Shown: positions 4,648 to 22,506 of the stretch, piece after piece
Numbering within the stretch: the first letter of the stretch is position 1
Layout: each line of letters starts with the position of its first letter
Source of the DNA: Synechococcus sp. RS9909
Lineage (GTDB): Bacteria; Cyanobacteriota; Cyanobacteriia; PCC-6307; Cyanobiaceae
Assembly (NCBI RefSeq): GCF_014279595.1
Contig: NZ_CP047943.1
Coordinates: 1,674,001-1,738,000 of the forward strand
Direction: 5' to 3'
Length of the DNA: 64,000 bases
Program-made: the position numbers and the translations under genes
The notes under the pieces: model-generated
Seen by the model: the letters and a program-made list of their open reading frames with translations, nothing else
Told to the model about the DNA's origin: nothing
Databases searched by the model: none

Positions 4648-5382
4648 TCAGGCGACCGTCCGATCTTCGCTGGCCGGATCGGCGCTGGCCCGATGGGGGA
4701 TCGTGCGGTTGAGCGGGGTGCGATCCAGGGAGGGTCGCTGCAGCAGTTCCTGACGCCATTGCTGGGCCCAGCGCATCTGACTGCGCTCGTAGATCCGCTC
4801 CAGTTCCACAACGGCATCGTCGTGAAAATCCACCCGCAGATCCAGCAAGGGGAACGCCGCTTCGCCGCTCACCTGCAGCGCCGCCGATGTGGAGCGCTCC
4901 GCGCGCCGATCCCCCCCGGCATCTTCCCCGGCGCGCAGCGCCTGGAGCAGCCGTCGCCCAAGCTTCCAGCTGGGATCGGAGGCCAGAAACGCGGCCTCCA
5001 TCGCCAGCAACACCTCCTCCCCCACCAGCAGATTGCCGGCCACAGCGACGTTGTCGCGGCAGCGATGCCCTGCCCAGGCGCCGCAGGCGTCGCCGGTCCA
5101 GCCGGCGGTGTGACCTGAGCCATCGATCAACTGCACCTGGCGCAGCTCCGCCTGGGGGTCATCAGCGAGCAATCCGCTCAGCACCACTGAGGCGCTCTGG
5201 TGCTGCTCCAGGCGCTCCAGTCCGCAGATGCCGAGGTAGGGGTTGGTGTGGGCCTGGGTGGCCACCGCTCCAACCCCGGCACGGATGTGGGGCACGGTGG
5301 AACCAACGGCAAGATGGCAGGTGGCCACGGCCACGCCGAAGCGACCGTTGTGGGGATCCCGGGCCAGGATCGAAAAGGTCAT
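4648..5382 (-). CDS. DUF1028 protein (Ntn-hydrolase-like fold)
   Basis: A 244-residue protein beginning MTFSILARDP. It carries the DUF1028 hallmarks: GRFGVAVATCHLAVG, then AGVGAVATQAHTNPYLG, and later DNVAVAGNLLVGEEV. DUF1028 proteins have an Ntn-hydrolase-like fold and often neighbour amidohydrolases of ureide or peptide metabolism. Their reaction is not established. The ATG overlaps the stop of the upstream M20 hydrolase (ATGA) and mntB follows 7 bp after its stop, so all three are translationally linked. The C-terminal 25 residues are polar and look like a variable tail. Confidence 0.82.
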   Translation of the reverse strand: MTFSILARDPHNGRFGVAVATCHLAVGSTVPHIRAGVGAVATQAHTNPYLGICGLERLEQHQSASVVLSGLLADDPQAELRQVQLIDGSGHTAGWTGDACGAWAGHRCRDNVAVAGNLLVGEEVLLAMEAAFLASDPSWKLGRRLLQALRAGEDAGGDRRAERSTSAALQVSGEAAFPLLDLRVDFHDDAVVELERIYERSQMRWAQQWRQELLQRPSLDRTPLNRTIPHRASADPASEDRTVA

Positions 5383-6671
5383 GGCGCCGGATGCAGGCTG
5401 CGGTCGAGCAGACGCAGGCTTTCCAGCAAGACGGCAGTGCCTGCCTGGCACTGATCCAGGCTGGTGAATTCAGCGGCGGAATGGCTCAGGCCCCGATGGC
5501 TGGGCACAAAGATCATGCCCATCGGCCAGCGACGACCGATCTCCTGGGCATCGTGACTGGCCCGGCTGGGCAGACGGCTGCTGGGCAGGCCAAACCGTTC
5601 GGCGGCCTGGCGGATCGCTGCCATCACGGTGGGGTCAGCCGGGGTTGGGGCCACCGCGAACTGGGGTTCCATCGCCAGGCGGCAGCCGGAGCGAGCACGG
5701 ATCTGCTCGAGGGCCTGCTCAAGGCCGGCTTCGAGTGCATCGAGCACCGTGGCATCGAGATCGCGCATGTCGACCGTGAGCGTCACCGCACCCGACACCA
5801 CATTGGCCGCATTGGGCCACACATCGAGCCGACCGACGGTGGCCACGGGGTCGCCGGGATGGTCCGAAGCCAGGCGCTCCACCGCCAGCACCACCTGGGC
5901 GGCCGCCACCAGGGCGTCCTGACGCCGGTCCATCGGGGTGGTGCCGGCATGGTTGGCCTGACCCTCCACCCGAATCGTGAAGCGGCGCTGTCCGACCACC
6001 CCCTCCACCACGCCGATCAGGTCACCGCGATTCTCAAGCACGCCCCCCTGTTCCACGTGCAGCTCCAAAAAGGCTGCGATCGCCTGATCGTCGCGGCGAG
6101 CCTGGGGCAGGGCATGCCAATCGCCACCGATGCTGGCGAGATTGCGCTCGATCGATTCGCCATTGCTGGTGGCATAGGCGTCAGGGTCGGCAGGGGCAAC
6201 ACCGGCCATTCCCTTGCAGCCCACCATCGTGGACTCCTCATCGGCGAACACCACCACTTCCAGCGGATGGCGCAGGCGGAGGCCCCGCTCCCCCAGGCAG
6301 CGCACCACCTCCAGACCGGCCAGCACCCCCAGGGCGCCGTCGTAGCGTCCACCCGTGGGCACCGTGTCGAGATGGGAGCCGGTCATCAGGGCGGGCAAGC
6401 TGGGTTCGGTGCCCTCGAGGCGACCGATCAGGTTGCCGGCCGCATCAACCCGCACCGTCAAGCCGGCCTCCAGCAACCAGGAGCTGAACAGTTCACGCCC
6501 CTGGCGATCGGCAGGGGTGAAACCGCGACGGCAGACGGAACCATCCTCCTGACCACCCACTTCCGCCATCGATTCCAGGCTGGCGAGCAAGCGCAAGCTG
6601 TTTGGTTCAATGCGACCCTGCCCGGCCTGACCGTGCATCTCAGCAGTGGGGAGCGTTTGCAGCAGGGTCAA
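5379..6671 (-). CDS. M20-family N-carbamoyl-L-amino-acid hydrolase / allantoate amidohydrolase
   Basis: A 430-residue binuclear metallo-amidase of the HyuC/AllC/UAH group, hydrolysing N-carbamoyl amino acids or ureides to release ammonia and CO2. Metal-ligand regions are visible: GSHLDTVPTGGRYDG (His, Asp), FADEES (Glu pair), LELHVEQG (His), and SHDAQEIG near the C-terminus. The lid-domain segment GQANHAGTTPMDRRQDAL is typical. Characterised members are Mn-dependent or strongly Mn-stimulated. The start is a TTG with GAGG seven bases upstream; an ATG 33 bp downstream is an alternative. The exact substrate (carbamoyl-aspartate, carbamoyl-beta-alanine, allantoate) cannot be decided from sequence. 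Confidence 0.85.
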   Translation of the reverse strand: MTLLQTLPTAEMHGQAGQGRIEPNSLRLLASLESMAEVGGQEDGSVCRRGFTPADRQGRELFSSWLLEAGLTVRVDAAGNLIGRLEGTEPSLPALMTGSHLDTVPTGGRYDGALGVLAGLEVVRCLGERGLRLRHPLEVVVFADEESTMVGCKGMAGVAPADPDAYATSNGESIERNLASIGGDWHALPQARRDDQAIAAFLELHVEQGGVLENRGDLIGVVEGVVGQRRFTIRVEGQANHAGTTPMDRRQDALVAAAQVVLAVERLASDHPGDPVATVGRLDVWPNAANVVSGAVTLTVDMRDLDATVLDALEAGLEQALEQIRARSGCRLAMEPQFAVAPTPADPTVMAAIRQAAERFGLPSSRLPSRASHDAQEIGRRWPMGMIFVPSHRGLSHSAAEFTSLDQCQAGTAVLLESLRLLDRSLHPAP

Positions 6672-6759: not shown

Positions 6760-8784
6760 TCACACGTGCCAGCCGAGGGCATCAGCTTTCTGGCGCGCTT
6801 GGGCGGGAACATCGGTGGCAATGAACATGCGATGCAGCATCTGCACCCCGAGCAGATGGTTGATCAGGGCATCCATCTGCACCCGATCGGCATCGGTGGT
6901 GGCGGGATCCTCATGGCGGGCGAACAGGTCGCGCACCCCCTCGGCGCTGAGCAGGCCGGCCTCGGCGATCGCCGCATCACTGAGGTAGTCGTCGGCCAGC
7001 TGCCGCATCTGGTTCCACTTGTCGGGCTCGGTGTGGGCTGGAGGGGCCATGAAGGCGAATTTCTCGCGCTTGTAGAGCACTTCCGGCAACAGCCCAGCCA
7101 TCGCTTCTCGTAACACATATTTCTCCGTTTTGCCCTTGATGCGCAGCTCCGGAGGCACCTGCACCGCCGCCGCGGCCAGATGGTGATCCAGGAACGCGGG
7201 CCTCGCTTCCATCGAATGGGCCATGTCCACCCGATCGCCACCCCAGGTGAGGATCTGGCCCTCGAGCATGGTCTTGATCCACACGTATTGGGCCTTGTCG
7301 AGGGCGTGGCGCCCCTCGAGCTGATCGGCATCGAGGGTGGCGGCGATCGCCTTGCCGGGCGCATAGCCCTCGAGCGCCTGGCGATGGGGCTCCGACAGCA
7401 GGTCGGGCACGAGAGGAGCGCAGGCCAGCCAGGGCTGCAGGCAGCTGGGGGTGAAGCCCACCACCGCATCGAGATCGGGATCATCCACCTGATCCGCCGC
7501 CAACATCGCGCCCTGCACCAGGGCATTCGACTGCTGCAGCAGATCTTCCCAGCTGCGTCGCTCCGCCTCCGGCAGGTCGTTGAAACCATGCAGAAACATG
7601 TCGCGGCGGAAGGCGGGATAGCCCCCGAAGAGCTCATCGGAGCCCTCTCCGGTCATCACCACCTTGTAATCCACGGCATTCACATGGCGGCTCATCAGAA
7701 ATTTCGCCACCGCCAGGGTGTTGTAGATCGTGCGTTCGGTGTGCCAGAGGGTGCGCTCCATCCAGCCATAAAGCTCCTTCCCTGACAAACGCATCAGGTC
7801 CTGTTCGGCGCCGGTCGCCTCCGCCATCTCCCGGGCGATCGGCGATTCGTCATAGCGGGCGTCATCGAAGCCGATCGTGAACGCCTTCACCGGGTTCTGA
7901 CTCACCGCCGCCGCCAGCCCGAGGATCGAGCAGCTGTCGATGCCGCCGGAGAGGTAGCAGCCCACCGGCACGTCGGCCACCATGCGCAGCTCCACCGCGT
8001 CCAGCAGGGCGGCCCGGATCGCGTCGATGTGCTCCTGCTCGGTGATGGAAGCGTCGCGCTCCCCCTGCCTGGGGAAATCAAGATCCCAGTATTTCCAGTG
8101 CTCCACCGTGAGCTGGCCATCGCGGCGACGCACGGTGATGCCATGACCGGGTGGCACCTGGTGCACACCGGCGAAGGCGGTGGTGCCCGGCACCATCGTC
8201 TGCATGAGCTGGTGGAACAGGCCCTCGGAGGTGAAACGCCGCTCCACGGCCGGATGGGCAAACAGCACCTTCAGCTCGGAGCCGAACACCAAGCCCGCCG
8301 GCGTCAGCGCCCAATACTGGGGCTTGATTCCGAAGCGATCCCGCACCAGATGCAGGGCATCGTCGGCTTCGTCGTAGATCGCGAAGGCGAATTCGCCGCG
8401 CAGCTGCGGCAGGGTGGCTTCAAGCCCCTGCTGTTCATAGAGGCGCAGCAGGATTTCTGAATCGCTCTTGCTGTCGAAACGCACGCCGCGGGCGGTGAGA
8501 TCAGCGCGGATGCGCTGGAAGTCGTAGAACTCGCCGTTGTGGGCCATCAGCAGCCGCGCCCCGGGGCCGGCGGCCTCGCTCAGGAAGGGCTGGCGGGCCC
8601 GCGTCTCGTTGAGGTCGATGATCGAGAGGCGGGCATGGCAGAAGCCGACGCCGGCATCGTCAAGGCTGCGGTAGCCGAAGCCGTCCGGACCACGATGCTC
8701 CTGGATCGCGGCCATGTTCACCAGCAGCTGGGGATCGACGCGCTGATGGGCCTGGGCGCTGAACACCCCTCCGATTCCACACAT
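6760..8784 (-). CDS. asnB: Asparagine synthetase (glutamine-hydrolysing)
   Basis: A 674-residue class-II amidotransferase. The catalytic Cys2 (MCGIGGVF) and HRGPDGFG, HNGEFYD and LRGEFAFAI motifs define the glutaminase domain. LSGGIDSC at residues 278-285 is the ATP pyrophosphatase loop of the synthetase domain, and GEGSDELFGGY follows. The reaction makes asparagine from aspartate, glutamine and ATP. It is 8 bp downstream of the carbamoyltransferase-like gene and 88 bp upstream of the M20 hydrolase, so it belongs to the same nitrogen operon. Longer than E. coli AsnB, with extended C-terminal helices. A specialised amidotransferase role is possible. Confidence 0.9.
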   Translation of the reverse strand: MCGIGGVFSAQAHQRVDPQLLVNMAAIQEHRGPDGFGYRSLDDAGVGFCHARLSIIDLNETRARQPFLSEAAGPGARLLMAHNGEFYDFQRIRADLTARGVRFDSKSDSEILLRLYEQQGLEATLPQLRGEFAFAIYDEADDALHLVRDRFGIKPQYWALTPAGLVFGSELKVLFAHPAVERRFTSEGLFHQLMQTMVPGTTAFAGVHQVPPGHGITVRRRDGQLTVEHWKYWDLDFPRQGERDASITEQEHIDAIRAALLDAVELRMVADVPVGCYLSGGIDSCSILGLAAAVSQNPVKAFTIGFDDARYDESPIAREMAEATGAEQDLMRLSGKELYGWMERTLWHTERTIYNTLAVAKFLMSRHVNAVDYKVVMTGEGSDELFGGYPAFRRDMFLHGFNDLPEAERRSWEDLLQQSNALVQGAMLAADQVDDPDLDAVVGFTPSCLQPWLACAPLVPDLLSEPHRQALEGYAPGKAIAATLDADQLEGRHALDKAQYVWIKTMLEGQILTWGGDRVDMAHSMEARPAFLDHHLAAAAVQVPPELRIKGKTEKYVLREAMAGLLPEVLYKREKFAFMAPPAHTEPDKWNQMRQLADDYLSDAAIAEAGLLSAEGVRDLFARHEDPATTDADRVQMDALINHLLGVQMLHRMFIATDVPAQARQKADALGWHV

Positions 8785-8792
8785 AATGGTCC

Positions 8793-9908
8793 TCAGATCA
8801 CATCCATGACGCGGTCGATGCGCTCCACCATGCAGGTGAGCAACGCCATGCGCAAAAACACCGCACCGCGCGCCTGCGAGAAATACCAGTTATGGGGCGT
8901 GGTGTCCATGCAGGTGCTCAACTCCGCACCACGGGCGAGCGGATGCAACACGATGGCGTTGGGCTTGAACGGCAGATCATGGGTGATCCGAAAGGAATCA
9001 CCGTGGGTCTCGTAGCTGTCGCCCACCCAGGCGATCGCGTTGATGTAGAGCACATCCAGCTCGGGCAATTCGCTCCGCAGGCTGGAGGTCCAGCGCACCG
9101 TCAGCCCCGCCTCCAGCAACTCCTCCAGCTGGCCGGGATCAAACAGATCCCCACTGGCATTGGTGGCGGGGTCGTGAATGATCACCAGCTCCGACACCAT
9201 ATGGGGGAATTTGGCGAGGATGCGCAGCAATGAGCGCACCGTGCGCATCCGGCTGGGGATTCCGATCACACCGATACGAATGCGTTCCGCTTCAGGCAGA
9301 GAGGGATTGGCCAGCTCAGGCCGCCATTTGAGGATCGTGTAGAGATCGGCCATCGCCTGGGTGGGATGTTCATCGATGCCGTTGCCGGCGTTGATGATTG
9401 GAATCCGCAATCCCTCCACCATCTGATACACGGCATCCGACTGGTTGTCGCGCAGCACCACGCAGTCGCCGTAGTTGTTGAACATGTGGGCGACATCCAG
9501 GAGCGATTCCCCCTTGGCGATCCCGGTGGAGCCACGATCGGTGATGTTGATCGAATCGCCGCCCAGGCGGTGCCAGGCGCTGTCGAAGGAGAGGCGGGTG
9601 CGAGTGCTCGGTTCATAGAAGGCGTTGATCAGCACCTTGCCGCGCAGGGGGTGGTTGTGGGCGATGTAGCGGTTGGGATTGCTCTCAAACTTGGCCGCCA
9701 AACGAAACAGCTGCAGCAAAGAATCGGCGCGAAAGGGCCGGATCGAGATCACATGCTGATCGGCGAGATCCAACAGGGCATCGCCGTTCTCCTGCACCGC
9801 ATTGAGCAGCGACTGGGGATGGCTGGATCCGTACACATCCGGGCCAAGACGCTCAAAACGCTGGGGATCGCAGCGGTGGTCGCGCTCAATCACAGGACAA
9901 CTGGCCAT
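8793..9908 (-). CDS. Aspartate-carbamoyltransferase-like enzyme with altered second-substrate site
   Basis: A 371-residue carbamoyltransferase. The carbamoyl-phosphate site is intact: STRTR at 101-105, the catalytic Lys in AKGES at about 132, Arg153, HPTQ at 181-184, and an Arg in SRMRTVRSL at about 222. The C-terminal HPLAR...TPHNWYF resembles ATCase rather than OTCase. At about 290-297, where ATCase has the aspartate-binding RVQ.ER, this protein has NAIAWVGDS. The N-terminus is about 50 residues longer than typical PyrB. The ATG at 9908 was chosen over an upstream start because the extra residues look non-coding. It may be a diverged PyrB or a carbamoyltransferase of different acceptor specificity, and its neighbours favour the latter. 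Confidence 0.8.
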   Translation of the reverse strand: MASCPVIERDHRCDPQRFERLGPDVYGSSHPQSLLNAVQENGDALLDLADQHVISIRPFRADSLLQLFRLAAKFESNPNRYIAHNHPLRGKVLINAFYEPSTRTRLSFDSAWHRLGGDSINITDRGSTGIAKGESLLDVAHMFNNYGDCVVLRDNQSDAVYQMVEGLRIPIINAGNGIDEHPTQAMADLYTILKWRPELANPSLPEAERIRIGVIGIPSRMRTVRSLLRILAKFPHMVSELVIIHDPATNASGDLFDPGQLEELLEAGLTVRWTSSLRSELPELDVLYINAIAWVGDSYETHGDSFRITHDLPFKPNAIVLHPLARGAELSTCMDTTPHNWYFSQARGAVFLRMALLTCMVERIDRVMDVI

Positions 9909-10086: not shown

Positions 10087-10224
10087 CTACCAGATGCGCC
10101 CCCGGCGCCATTCGATCCACCAGATCAGCAGCAGGGCGAGCACGGCGAGGATCAACCCCACCAGGCTTCCCACCACCACCAGTTCAAACAGGGTCGGTCC
10201 GGCGATCCAGGTCATGGCCAACAT
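10087..10224 (-). CDS. 45-residue micro-membrane protein downstream of the symporter
   Basis: A 45-codon frame starts 3 bp after the symporter stop (TGAGCGATG). It encodes one strong transmembrane helix (FELVVVGSLVGLILAVLALLLIWW) followed by a basic tail, EWRRGRIW. The positive-inside rule puts the C-terminus in the cytoplasm. The tight spacing, the perfect membrane-protein architecture and the in-frame codon bias indicate a real gene rather than a spurious frame. No family is recognised. Small accessory subunits exist for some sodium:solute symporters (YhdT with PanF, DUF4212 and DUF485 proteins), but those are about twice this size. Confidence 0.65.
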   Translation of the reverse strand: MLAMTWIAGPTLFELVVVGSLVGLILAVLALLLIWWIEWRRGRIW

Positions 10225-10227
10225 CGC

Positions 10228-11646
10228 TCAACCCTCCTTCAGGATGTGCCAGGAGAAACGCTCCGGCCACAGCTGGGTGCCCACCGCCATCACCAGGGCC
10301 GACACCGCCGCGGAAATCAACGCAGCGCAGTAAGGCGCGATCAGGGTGTAAGCCAGGAGGCCGCACACACTTCCCGCCACCATCGCAGCGATGGCGGCGA
10401 CGCGATTGGCACTGCGCCAGTAGAGGCCATAGGCCACCGGCCAGATCGTGGAGGCCACCAGGGCACCGGTGAAGAACAGCACCGAGGCGAGCGAATCCAG
10501 CCGCGGCCAGGAGAGCGCCAGGGTGACGACCCCGAGGCCGATCACCACCAGCCGGGTCGCGCGTTTGAGCTCGGCATCGCTGAGCTGGGGGTTGAGCAGT
10601 TTGAACACCACATCCTCAGCCACCAGATCGGCCGTGGAGGCGAGCAGGGAATCCAGCGTGGAGGTGAGCGAGGCGAACACCACAACAAACACCATCGCCG
10701 CGCCGCCGGCGCCCAGCAGCTGGGAGGCCACCACGGGGAACACCATGTTCACCTGGGGCAGCTCAATCGCCTGGGCCAGCGCCACCAGCCCGATCGAGCC
10801 GGTCACCACGGGAACGGTCATCCAGGCGAGGCCACCGAACACAAACGAGCGAAACACCACCGAGGGGCGGCTTGCGAACACCCGCGACCACCAGATGTTG
10901 TTGTGAAACACCTCACCCATCGAGAAGAGGGCCGAATTCCAGGCGATCAACAGACCGGCGGGAAGCAGCAGGTTGAGGCGGCCGGGATGGCTGGCCACCA
11001 ATTCGCGATGCACCTCCGGCACGGGGAACTGGCGAAAGGCGAGCACGGCCACCACCACCAGGAGCACCATGATCAGCAACGACTGAATGAAATCGGTGCC
11101 CACCACAGCACGCATGCCGCCATAGAGGGTGTAGATCGTGGAGACGCCGATCACCACCACCATGCCGAGGCGGTAATCGAAACCCGATAAGGCCTCCAGC
11201 AGGATCCCCGCCCCCATCGCCTGGGTCATCAGGAAGCCGAGGGTGTAGACCGCCGTGATCACCATGAACACCCACCAGGCCGCCCGGCCGTAACGCAGCC
11301 GGAAGAAATCGCCGCTGGTGCGACCGGCGGGCATCAGCTGCTTGATGCGCAGGGCCAGCGGGGCGAACAGGATCAGGCCCAAGCCGGCCAGGGCGTAGCT
11401 GACCATGCCCCAGAGCCCGTTGCGGTAGCCGAATTCGGGCGCCAGCAGGGTGGTGTTGCCGGTCACCCAGGAGGCCATCAGGGTGGCGGTGCTCAAGGCC
11501 AGGCCGATATTCCGCCCCGCCAGCATGTAGTCATCGGCGTCACCCTTGCCCTTCCGCCCCCAGGACACGCCGAGGGCGATCCAGAGCACGGAGAAGATCA
11601 CCACCAGAGCCCAGGCGATCCCTGGCGCCAGAAAGGGTTGGGCCAT
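10228..11646 (-). CDS. Sodium:solute symporter (SSS/SLC5 family)
   Basis: A 472-residue LeuT-fold sodium symporter with about 13 hydrophobic segments. SSS features include [22 protein letters not shown] near the first core helix, the [11 protein letters not shown] loop and the conserved [10 protein letters not shown] sodium-site region. Substrates in this family include proline, pantothenate, urea, nucleosides and sialic acid, and none can be assigned here. Its position in a nitrogen operon suggests a small nitrogenous solute. Start: ATG overlapping the stop of a 42-codon upstream gene (TGATGG). A 45-codon gene follows 3 bp after its stop. Confidence 0.88.
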
Positions 11647-11774
11647 CAATCCGCTCCCTCGAAGGGGTCGCGGCCCTGCCAGTGCCGATACCCCTGCCAG
11701 ATCATCAGCGTGGTGGCCAGTGTGACCACGGCACCGAGCCCAAAAATCAGCAGGGCCTGTGGCAAATCATCCAT
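11646..11774 (-). CDS. 42-residue micro-membrane protein upstream of the symporter
   Basis: A 42-codon frame, [14 protein letters not shown]..., whose TGA overlaps the symporter ATG (TGATGG). It encodes one transmembrane helix ([19 protein letters not shown]) and a polar C-terminal tail ending DPFEGAD. The overlap indicates translational coupling to the transporter. No family is recognised. Together with the 45-residue protein on the other side it makes a symporter bracketed by two single-helix proteins. Confidence 0.62.
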
Positions 11775-11928: not shown

Positions 11929-14100
<2,172 letters not shown>

Positions 14101-21778: not shown

Positions 21779-22506
21779 CCTCCCCACCCCCGGCATCACC
21801 CTTGGACCTGCGTTCTCTCGAGTTGCACCAGAGCCAGGAGCTGCTGGAGTGGATCATCCGTTTCGATGCGGTCACCGTGCGGGAACGGGTGGAGGCGATG
21901 CGGCGTCGCTGGCCCGATGACAGTTCCTTCGCCCTGGCTCAGCGGGCCTTCGATCAGGCCGGCCTCTGGGTGATCGGGGCGGGGGTGGTGACCGGCCTGG
22001 CCGCCAATCCCCTCCTCGGTGTGGTGGGCACCCTGGCGGACCTCTCGATCACTGTGCGCACCCAGATCTTCGCGGCCGCCTGCGCAGCGGAACTGCTGAT
22101 CCCCGGTTTTCTCGATGCCGAGACCGCCCGTCAGGAATTACTGCTGCCGATCTTCGGCACCGGTGTGATCAGTCAGGTGGGGCTGGAGCTGGGCGTCAAG
22201 GCCCTCAACACCGCCAGCCGCGAGGTGGTGGTGAAACTGCTGAAACGCCAGGGGGCGGAGATCGTGAACCGGGTGACGGCACGGGCCCTGGGGCGGCGCG
22301 CCATGCAACAGGGGCTCATCACCAAAACCCTGCCCTTGCTGGGGGGCCTGCTCGGTGGTGGCTGGAACGCCGTGGAGGTGCGGCTGGTGCGCGATCGCAC
22401 CCTGCGTTATCTCACCAACCACAGCCTCGATGCCTCTCCCGTGATCGACGTGGAAGCCCGACCGATCGACACGGCCCAGAAGGTTCAGCAGGAACCATTT
22501 TGGTAG
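21775..22506 (+). CDS. EcsC/DUF697-like membrane-associated protein
   Basis: A 243-residue protein. The central hydrophobic region (LWVIGAGVVTGLAANPLLGVVGTLADLSITVRTQIF) and a second one (KTLPLLGGLLGGGWNAVEVRLV) are reminiscent of EcsC and DUF697 proteins. Soluble N- and C-terminal tails flank them. Function is unknown. The TTG start at 21775 overlaps the end of the budA remnant (TTGA). No other start fits the domain. Confidence 0.6.
   Translation: MTSPPPASPLDLRSLELHQSQELLEWIIRFDAVTVRERVEAMRRRWPDDSSFALAQRAFDQAGLWVIGAGVVTGLAANPLLGVVGTLADLSITVRTQIFAAACAAELLIPGFLDAETARQELLLPIFGTGVISQVGLELGVKALNTASREVVVKLLKRQGAEIVNRVTARALGRRAMQQGLITKTLPLLGGLLGGGWNAVEVRLVRDRTLRYLTNHSLDASPVIDVEARPIDTAQKVQQEPFW

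Follow-up and report, generated by a model that had tools for sequence, protein, structure and literature searches.

Organization of the gene cluster

The window, by which we mean the whole 64 000-nucleotide stretch of DNA analysed here, is part of the genome of Synechococcus sp. RS9909 (2,603,169 bases in one contig). An open reading frame on its reverse strand (8793–9908) encodes 371 amino acids from an ATG start, and domain profiles detect both the carbamoyl-phosphate and the aspartate/ornithine domains of carbamoyltransferases in it. Profiles, alignment and an AF2 model describe a carbamoyltransferase with a rebuilt acceptor site, which is predicted to be an L-glutamine N-α-carbamoyltransferase. 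Eight bases separate it from the gene of an AsnB-like glutamine-dependent amidotransferase (6760–8784, reverse strand), which starts with MCGI and contains an SGGIDS loop. The cluster continues with an M20-family N-carbamoyl-amino-acid hydrolase (5379–6671, reverse strand; assigned using NCBIfam profiles) and a DUF1028 protein (4648–5382, reverse strand), for which MTFSIL at 5382 is the likely start within a frame that is open from 5451. On the other side lies a transporter of the sodium:solute symporter (SSS) family (10228–11646, reverse strand), a predicted solute importer.

Two small membrane proteins border the symporter on the same strand. One of them (45 amino acids, ending in Trp; 10087–10224) is encoded between the symporter and the carbamoyltransferase, and the gene of the other (42 amino acids; 11646–11774) overlaps the symporter start. 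Both may be symporter subunits. With a scan that required hydrophobicity and a final Trp, 56 of 60 loci yielded a small membrane ORF in the gap that separates the symporter from the carbamoyltransferase; one of the 56 (L022) looks spurious. Small membrane proteins also flank the symporter in an Aliidiomarina locus (L055) and an Idiomarina locus (L083), where the upstream protein is longer.

The M20 protein scores highest against ErtE (NF058540, N-carbamyl-L-glutamate amidohydrolase) with 427.1 bits, which is under the cut-off of 520, and passes the model named allantoate amidohydrolase (NF006771; 422 bits, cut-off 399). The DUF1028 protein is predicted to be an amidase.

The same set of genes (symporter, carbamoyltransferase, amidotransferase, M20 hydrolase and DUF1028 protein) occurs a second time in the genome, and the two carbamoyltransferases of this type are 73% identical. 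Together with ArgF (L001) and a PyrB containing RLQKERM (L004) they bring the number of carbamoyltransferases in RS9909 to four. Whether the genome has a second, canonical PyrB had been raised as a question in the preliminary description; it does, and the enzyme in the window is not its only aspartate carbamoyltransferase (ATCase) candidate, which leaves the earlier prediction unrefuted on this point. PyrB with R[VLI]QxER and ArgF are likewise present besides the new-type enzyme in all 11 genomes examined.

The copy in the window adjoins a divergent gene for type III glutamine synthetase (GlnN; 11929–14100, forward strand), a possible local supply of glutamine. Among the loci scanned this neighbour is found only in RS9909. 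A second glnN copy, 74% identical, is located at G000:C1:1212702-1214858 of the same genome, and 15 genomes of the genus were searched, of which nine others with a match have a single glnN. The second copy of the cluster adjoins urease genes, as judged by eye from the ORFs. Two ORFs resembling, also by eye, a circularly permuted ATP-grasp and an alpha-E domain protein lie beside it (L005:16926-19459, forward strand). An ORF of similar appearance has relatives in six of the 80 loci that were retained, from 116, in our scan of named genomes. No NtcA-type site was found near the cluster; the only matches in the window to GTAN8TAC, which we take to be the NtcA pattern, are at 22503 and 32946.

The acceptor site of the carbamoyltransferase

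The window protein, 42 non-redundant relatives and 11 PyrBs from the compared genomes were aligned with E. coli PyrB as the reference. Ser52, Thr53, Arg54, Thr55, Lys84, Arg105, His134 and Gln137 are retained in the window protein and in all 42 relatives, and so is Arg167. The carbamoyl-phosphate site, which the preliminary description had called intact in the one protein, is thus intact across the family. The picture is different for the residues that presumably contact the acceptor. In E. coli PyrB we take Arg229 and Gln231 to bind aspartate and Arg167 to be the residue for the α-carboxylate. At the position of Arg229 the relatives have Ala (30) or Ser (12) and at that of Gln231 they again have Ala (38) or Ser (4), while both residues are retained by all 11 PyrBs. 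The position of Lys232 is occupied by Trp in 42/42. A further active-site residue, Ser80, is matched by Gly with a gap close by in all 42 relatives, and by Ala or Ser in the 11 PyrBs. The reported replacement of the aspartate-binding loop by NAIAWVGDS is therefore a family trait. The accompanying remark that all relevant arginines are kept holds for Arg54, Arg105 and Arg167 and fails for Arg229.

The same pattern is evident from the fetched ORFs of the family (161, with repeat fetches of one gene counted), of which none contains R[VLI]QxER, 159 contain YxN[AS]I[AS]W and 160 contain HPLARG. This last motif is a near-constant signature, and the previously noted HPLAR in place of HPLPR is thus real and family-wide; by itself it says little, as eight of the 11 PyrBs have HPGPxN at this position. 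The residue changes are common to cyanobacterial and proteobacterial relatives, which excludes chance. Substitution of Arg229 and Gln231 by small residues together with retention of the carbamoyl-phosphate residues and Arg167 fits, as the acceptor, an α-amino acid whose side chain is uncharged and differs from that of aspartate.

Full-length comparisons agree with an origin among the ATCases. The AF2 model, built with 42 sequences (mean pLDDT 83.9, pTM 0.86), has the ATCase fold. The best match in a comparison with the PDB has a Z-score of 34.1 (2.5 Å over 310 residues), and Foldseek ranks E. coli ATCase first. The 50 PDB matches listed are aspartate carbamoyltransferases, and the lack of other types among them is uninformative. 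In a tree of 70 proteins (quick method, long branches flagged) the 42 family members cluster with three degenerate relatives (SH-aLRT 100), and the long branch that leads to this group adjoins E. coli-type PyrB and not ArgF. The window protein nevertheless scores below the cut-off of the ATCase equivalog model (TIGR00670; 195.3 versus 236.95 bits). It is also below those for putrescine carbamoyltransferase (TIGR04384; 64.6 versus 500), YgeW (TIGR03316; 28.1 versus 500) and N-acetylornithine carbamoyltransferase (NF003384; 27 versus 288).

A likeness to ornithine carbamoyltransferase (OTCase) had been suggested from the tryptophan-containing loop. Judged by eye this is true of the short loop only. 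For the whole protein an OTCase-like enzyme is not supported, given its place beside PyrB in the tree and its 88.2 bits against the OTCase cut-off of 280.85 (TIGR00658), compared with 195.3 bits for the ATCase model.

With the shared fold and PyrBs as the nearest neighbours in the tree, the protein could be imagined to be a divergent but ordinary ATCase that acts as a second pyrimidine enzyme. We regard this as very improbable, as Arg229 and Gln231 are gone in every one of the 42 relatives, the equivalog cut-off is not reached and a canonical PyrB accompanies the enzyme in 11/11 genomes. These comparisons instead define a conserved carbamoyltransferase subfamily, which is real and appears to derive from E. 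coli-type PyrB. The prediction of a different carbamoyl acceptor is supported by the loss of Arg229 and Gln231, by the presence of both PyrB and ArgF in the same genomes and by a conserved gene context that is not one of pyrimidine synthesis. Residue logic alone does not point to glutamine, and the acceptor can hardly be read from the protein itself.

Three relatives lack both STRTR and HPTQ (L128:1492-2562, L129:1492-2694 and L130:1471-2622, all reverse strand) and were left out of the family counts. They nest within the family on long branches of the quick tree, where their placement is unsure, and are possibly a non-catalytic subunit or a regulator. One gammaproteobacterial genome (G668) has an intact and a degenerate copy, and two others (G584 and G694) have the degenerate form only.

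Gene partners and distribution

Among the 80 named loci only four families are present in at least 30: the carbamoyltransferase, the amidotransferase, the symporter and the M20 hydrolase. The amidotransferase is the steadiest partner (78/80), and in the two exceptions (L031 and L051), which lie at contig ends, the sequence breaks off with the carbamoyltransferase or immediately behind it. The symporter is found upstream of the carbamoyltransferase in 54 loci, comprising all 42 proteobacterial loci, all 12 of the Synechococcus/Cyanobium type (L023, labelled as a gammaproteobacterial MAG, included) and none of the 26 of the Prochlorococcus type (which include L032, labelled as a Trichodesmium MAG, and a few Synechococcaceae). 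The M20 gene lies within 53 of the 80 loci and 21 of the 42 proteobacterial ones. Genome-wide it was recovered in nine of ten carriers, Pleionea being the one in which it was not found, a result that is unspecific because M20 hydrolases are common. DUF1028 is present in 29 of the named loci, none of them proteobacterial.

The window amidotransferase passes the asparagine-synthase cut-off (TIGR01536; 418.3 versus 267.1 bits), which counts against a specialised product; by profile it could be an ordinary asparagine synthetase. The AsnB-like models for XrtA/PEP-CTERM systems (366 bits) and for N-acetylglutaminylglutamine amide (NAGGN; 291 bits) both stay below their cut-offs. The N-terminal Cys2 (MCGI) and SGG[IV]DS are conserved in all 19 cluster amidotransferases listed, some of which were fetched twice. 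In a quick tree with long branches flagged, the amidotransferases of the clusters group in a clade of their own (SH-aLRT 99), separate from E. coli AsnB and the further asparagine-synthase homologues compared.

This partnership bears on the direction of the pathway. The preliminary description had considered that the carbamoyltransferase might run catabolically, and one can envisage a nitrogen-scavenging locus in which N-carbamoyl amino acids, allantoate or other ureido compounds are imported and broken down, with phosphorolysis by the carbamoyltransferase. The cluster does encode an importer, its M20 N-carbamoyl hydrolase is above the allantoate amidohydrolase cut-off, and the two copies lie beside glnN and, by eye, urease genes. 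A glutamine-consuming amidotransferase in 78 of 80 loci is hard to fit to breakdown, however, hydrolysis by the M20 enzyme would make phosphorolysis pointless, and none of the five cluster proteins scanned is a carbamate kinase. The catabolic direction is not upheld by these data, and we consider scavenging improbable.

Modification by the pair of a peptide, a sugar or a secondary metabolite, and not of a free amino acid, is extremely improbable. The scores of the XrtA/PEP-CTERM and NAGGN models might hint at such a role, but both are under cut-off, no family beyond the four above recurs in at least 30 of the named loci, and Arg167 is retained as expected for a free α-carboxylate.

The new-type carbamoyltransferase is carried by seven of 40 related genomes, all of the same genus as RS9909, and by 16 of 386 genomes of its phylum, all of its family (RS9909 counted in both). 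Cyanobacterial carriers among the named genomes are Prochlorococcus, Synechococcus and Cyanobium. The others are Idiomarina, Aliidiomarina, Pseudidiomarina, Pseudoalteromonas, Alteromonas, Lacimicrobium, Bowmanella, Aliikangiella, Pleionea, Ketobacter, Pseudomaricurvus, Kordiimonas and some MAGs. These genera are largely marine, saline or halophilic. In the class Gammaproteobacteria (that of G412) 25 of 369 genomes match at 1e-70, or 23, G412 included, when the two with only a degenerate copy are set aside. A search of a plasmid collection at 1e-60 gave no match. Reaction-centre genes (PF00124) are found in two of 22 class-level carriers, G743 and G527, and G743 has pufLM. The enzyme is particularly frequent in the family of G743, where 41 of 47 genomes carry it at 1e-100, G743 included.

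A candidate pathway to N-carbamoyl-L-glutamine 1-amide

N-Carbamoyl-L-glutamine 1-amide (CGA) is a compatible solute reportedly described in 1991 from Ectothiorhodospira marismortui, an organism of the Dead Sea. It is a derivative of glutamine (C6H12N4O3) in which the α-nitrogen bears a carbamoyl group and C1 is an amide. These are the two groups that a carbamoyltransferase and an AsnB-like amidotransferase would be expected to introduce, which leads to CGA as a reading of the gene pair.

The genome G743 matches the E. marismortui DSM 4180 assembly as given in PMC8877833, with 68.5% GC in the cluster region compared with 68.2% for the strain. It has three PF02729 genes only, namely ArgF, PyrB and the new-type carbamoyltransferase, so that the latter has no rival carbamoyltransferase in the genome that matches the CGA producer. 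Here the cluster consists of the amidotransferase, the carbamoyltransferase, an isochorismatase-family amidase and an M20 hydrolase, and is flanked by a PfkB kinase and a sucrose synthase similar to that of L136, which passes TIGR02470. The second phototroph genome, G527, contains the same gene set, with an MscS channel that follows the amidotransferase; its amidotransferase also passes TIGR01536 (418 bits). This genome resembles Ectothiorhodosinus mongolicus, with 55.6% GC at the locus and 55.6% in PMC8877833, an agreement that falls short of proof.

Sucrose synthase and PfkB kinase genes are present beside the cluster in both phototroph loci, and the bordering sucrose synthase is a hint of an osmolyte gene neighbourhood. 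Sucrose synthase is within two of eight chosen loci and none of the 80 named loci. The bordering genes are at L136:4513-6942 (reverse strand) and L135:13938-16322 (forward strand). MscS likewise is within two of the eight chosen loci (directly after the amidotransferase in L136 and about 1.6 kb downstream in L137) and within one of the 80 named loci; it is not a general neighbour, hence its support is weak. The isochorismatase-type amidase is present in 8/8 chosen and 0/80 named loci. Of 12 genomes searched for it, one has a close match, two have weak matches and nine have none at 1e-10. For the G527 copy the top NCBIfam model is biuret amidohydrolase, with 61 bits versus a cut-off of 370.

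The gene neighbours and the presence of the cluster in the genome matching the CGA producer suggest CGA as the product. In the scheme that we favour, the carbamoyltransferase, having evolved from an E. coli-type ATCase, would carbamoylate the α-amino group of an amino acid other than aspartate, most likely L-glutamine, and the amidotransferase (6760–8784) would convert the 1-carboxyl of N-carbamoyl-glutamine into an amide to give CGA. Import of the solute would fall to the SSS symporter, perhaps together with the two small membrane proteins. In RS9909 the M20 hydrolase and the DUF1028 protein would turn it back into glutamine, with release of ammonia and CO2, a hydrolase role that the M20 enzyme and the isochorismatase-family amidase may take in the gammaproteobacterial loci fetched. 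The residue changes, the separate PyrB and ArgF, the conserved gene set and its occurrence in G743 are observations; from there on we infer which amino acid is the acceptor, in which order the steps occur, what the product is, how symporter and hydrolases take part and that the system serves salt tolerance. On the combined sequence evidence it is likely that the pair makes CGA or a very close analogue, that the symporter imports it and that the hydrolases recycle it.

It is conceivable, if rather unlikely, that the pair makes some other N-carbamoyl amino acid or amide, for example carbamoylated asparagine, with the asparagine supplied by the AsnB-like enzyme, as an osmolyte or a nitrogen store. 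The loss of Arg229 and Gln231 opens the pocket without naming a ligand, and the amidotransferase scores as an asparagine synthase. No asparagine-synthase homologue was found at 1e-20 in the RS9909 genome outside the two clusters. The control, S. elongatus, has no such gene at all, which means that cyanobacteria can manage without one, and an asparagine product remains compatible with the data. Speaking against a different product are the genome matching the CGA producer, where the cluster is present and its carbamoyltransferase is the one candidate, the N-carbamyl-glutamate hydrolase that is the top model of the M20 protein (albeit below cut-off) and the separate clade of the cluster amidotransferases.

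Several observations temper the assignment to CGA. CGA has not been reported in most carriers, which include well-studied genera; the enzymes for breakdown differ from lineage to lineage, and loci of the Prochlorococcus type have no symporter of their own. Two carriers from the family of G743, G800 and G801, have a 369-residue nitrite reductase stretch identical to PDB entries 3owm and 3sxq, which we presume to be from Thioalkalivibrio nitratireducens and T. paradoxus, and are taken as Thioalkalivibrio, a genus that NCBI places in Ectothiorhodospiraceae together with Ectothiorhodospira. According to PMC9062515 and PMC3368412, Thioalkalivibrio uses glycine betaine, and sucrose in some strains. 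The words 'carbamoyl' and 'asparagine' are absent from the main text of the T. versutus salt transcriptome paper (PMC9062515). The literature counts CGA among the minor solutes of E. marismortui, in which a Raman study did not see it. Further purple sulfur bacteria are mentioned in connection with CGA in a 2020 paper. The solutes of Thioalkalivibrio, the minor status of CGA, the variable breakdown enzymes and an acceptor that is unreadable from sequence hold our confidence at likely and no higher.

A broader reading is that marine picocyanobacteria, including many Prochlorococcus, and common marine heterotrophs make CGA using the PyrB-derived carbamoyltransferase. CGA would then be an unrecognised four-nitrogen osmolyte that is made, imported via a dedicated symporter and recycled, and a hidden part of dissolved organic nitrogen. 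We put this forward tentatively, as a proposal for which belief and doubt are nearly in balance. Neither genes for CGA nor a description of the new-type carbamoyltransferase was found in the literature searched (open-licence PubMed Central papers), and the cluster provides candidate genes for a solute described in 1991. On this reading the carbamoyltransferases as a superfamily would gain a predicted new acceptor, a DUF1028 protein would have a proposed function, and certain marine phototrophs of very high abundance are predicted to contain a solute rich in nitrogen.

Of the known systems, E. coli-type PyrB (TIGR00670, NF002032) is the closest. It shares the fold, STRTR, Lys84, Arg105, HPTQ and Arg167 and is the nearest branch of the tree. 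The new family differs in lacking Arg229 and Gln231, in its YIN[AS]I[AS]W and HPLARG loops, in its score below cut-off and in occurring in genomes that have a separate PyrB. The knotted carbamoyltransferase YgeW of E. coli is similarly encoded in a gene cluster and is neither PyrB nor ArgF, but the window protein has only 28 bits against the cut-off of 500, and there is neither an AsnB-like gene nor a symporter among the nine E. coli features listed. The cluster M20 protein resembles the hydantoinase/carbamoylase family (TIGR01879), with 394 bits over a cut-off of 204, whereas it remains under the equivalog cut-off of ErtE (427 versus 520). NAGGN is a neutral compatible solute in which the α-amino group is capped and the α-carboxyl is amidated by an AsnB-like enzyme. 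The same logic of capping and AsnB-like amidation is proposed here, except that the cap would be a carbamoyl group from a carbamoyltransferase; the window amidotransferase is also well below the cut-off of the NAGGN amidotransferase (TIGR03104; 291 versus 570 bits). For CGA in E. marismortui, the expected product is the same and the matching genome groups carbamoyltransferase, amidotransferase, isochorismatase-type amidase and M20 hydrolase. In a 2013 review CGA is said to be found in one organism only, whereas the enzyme is present in many marine bacteria.
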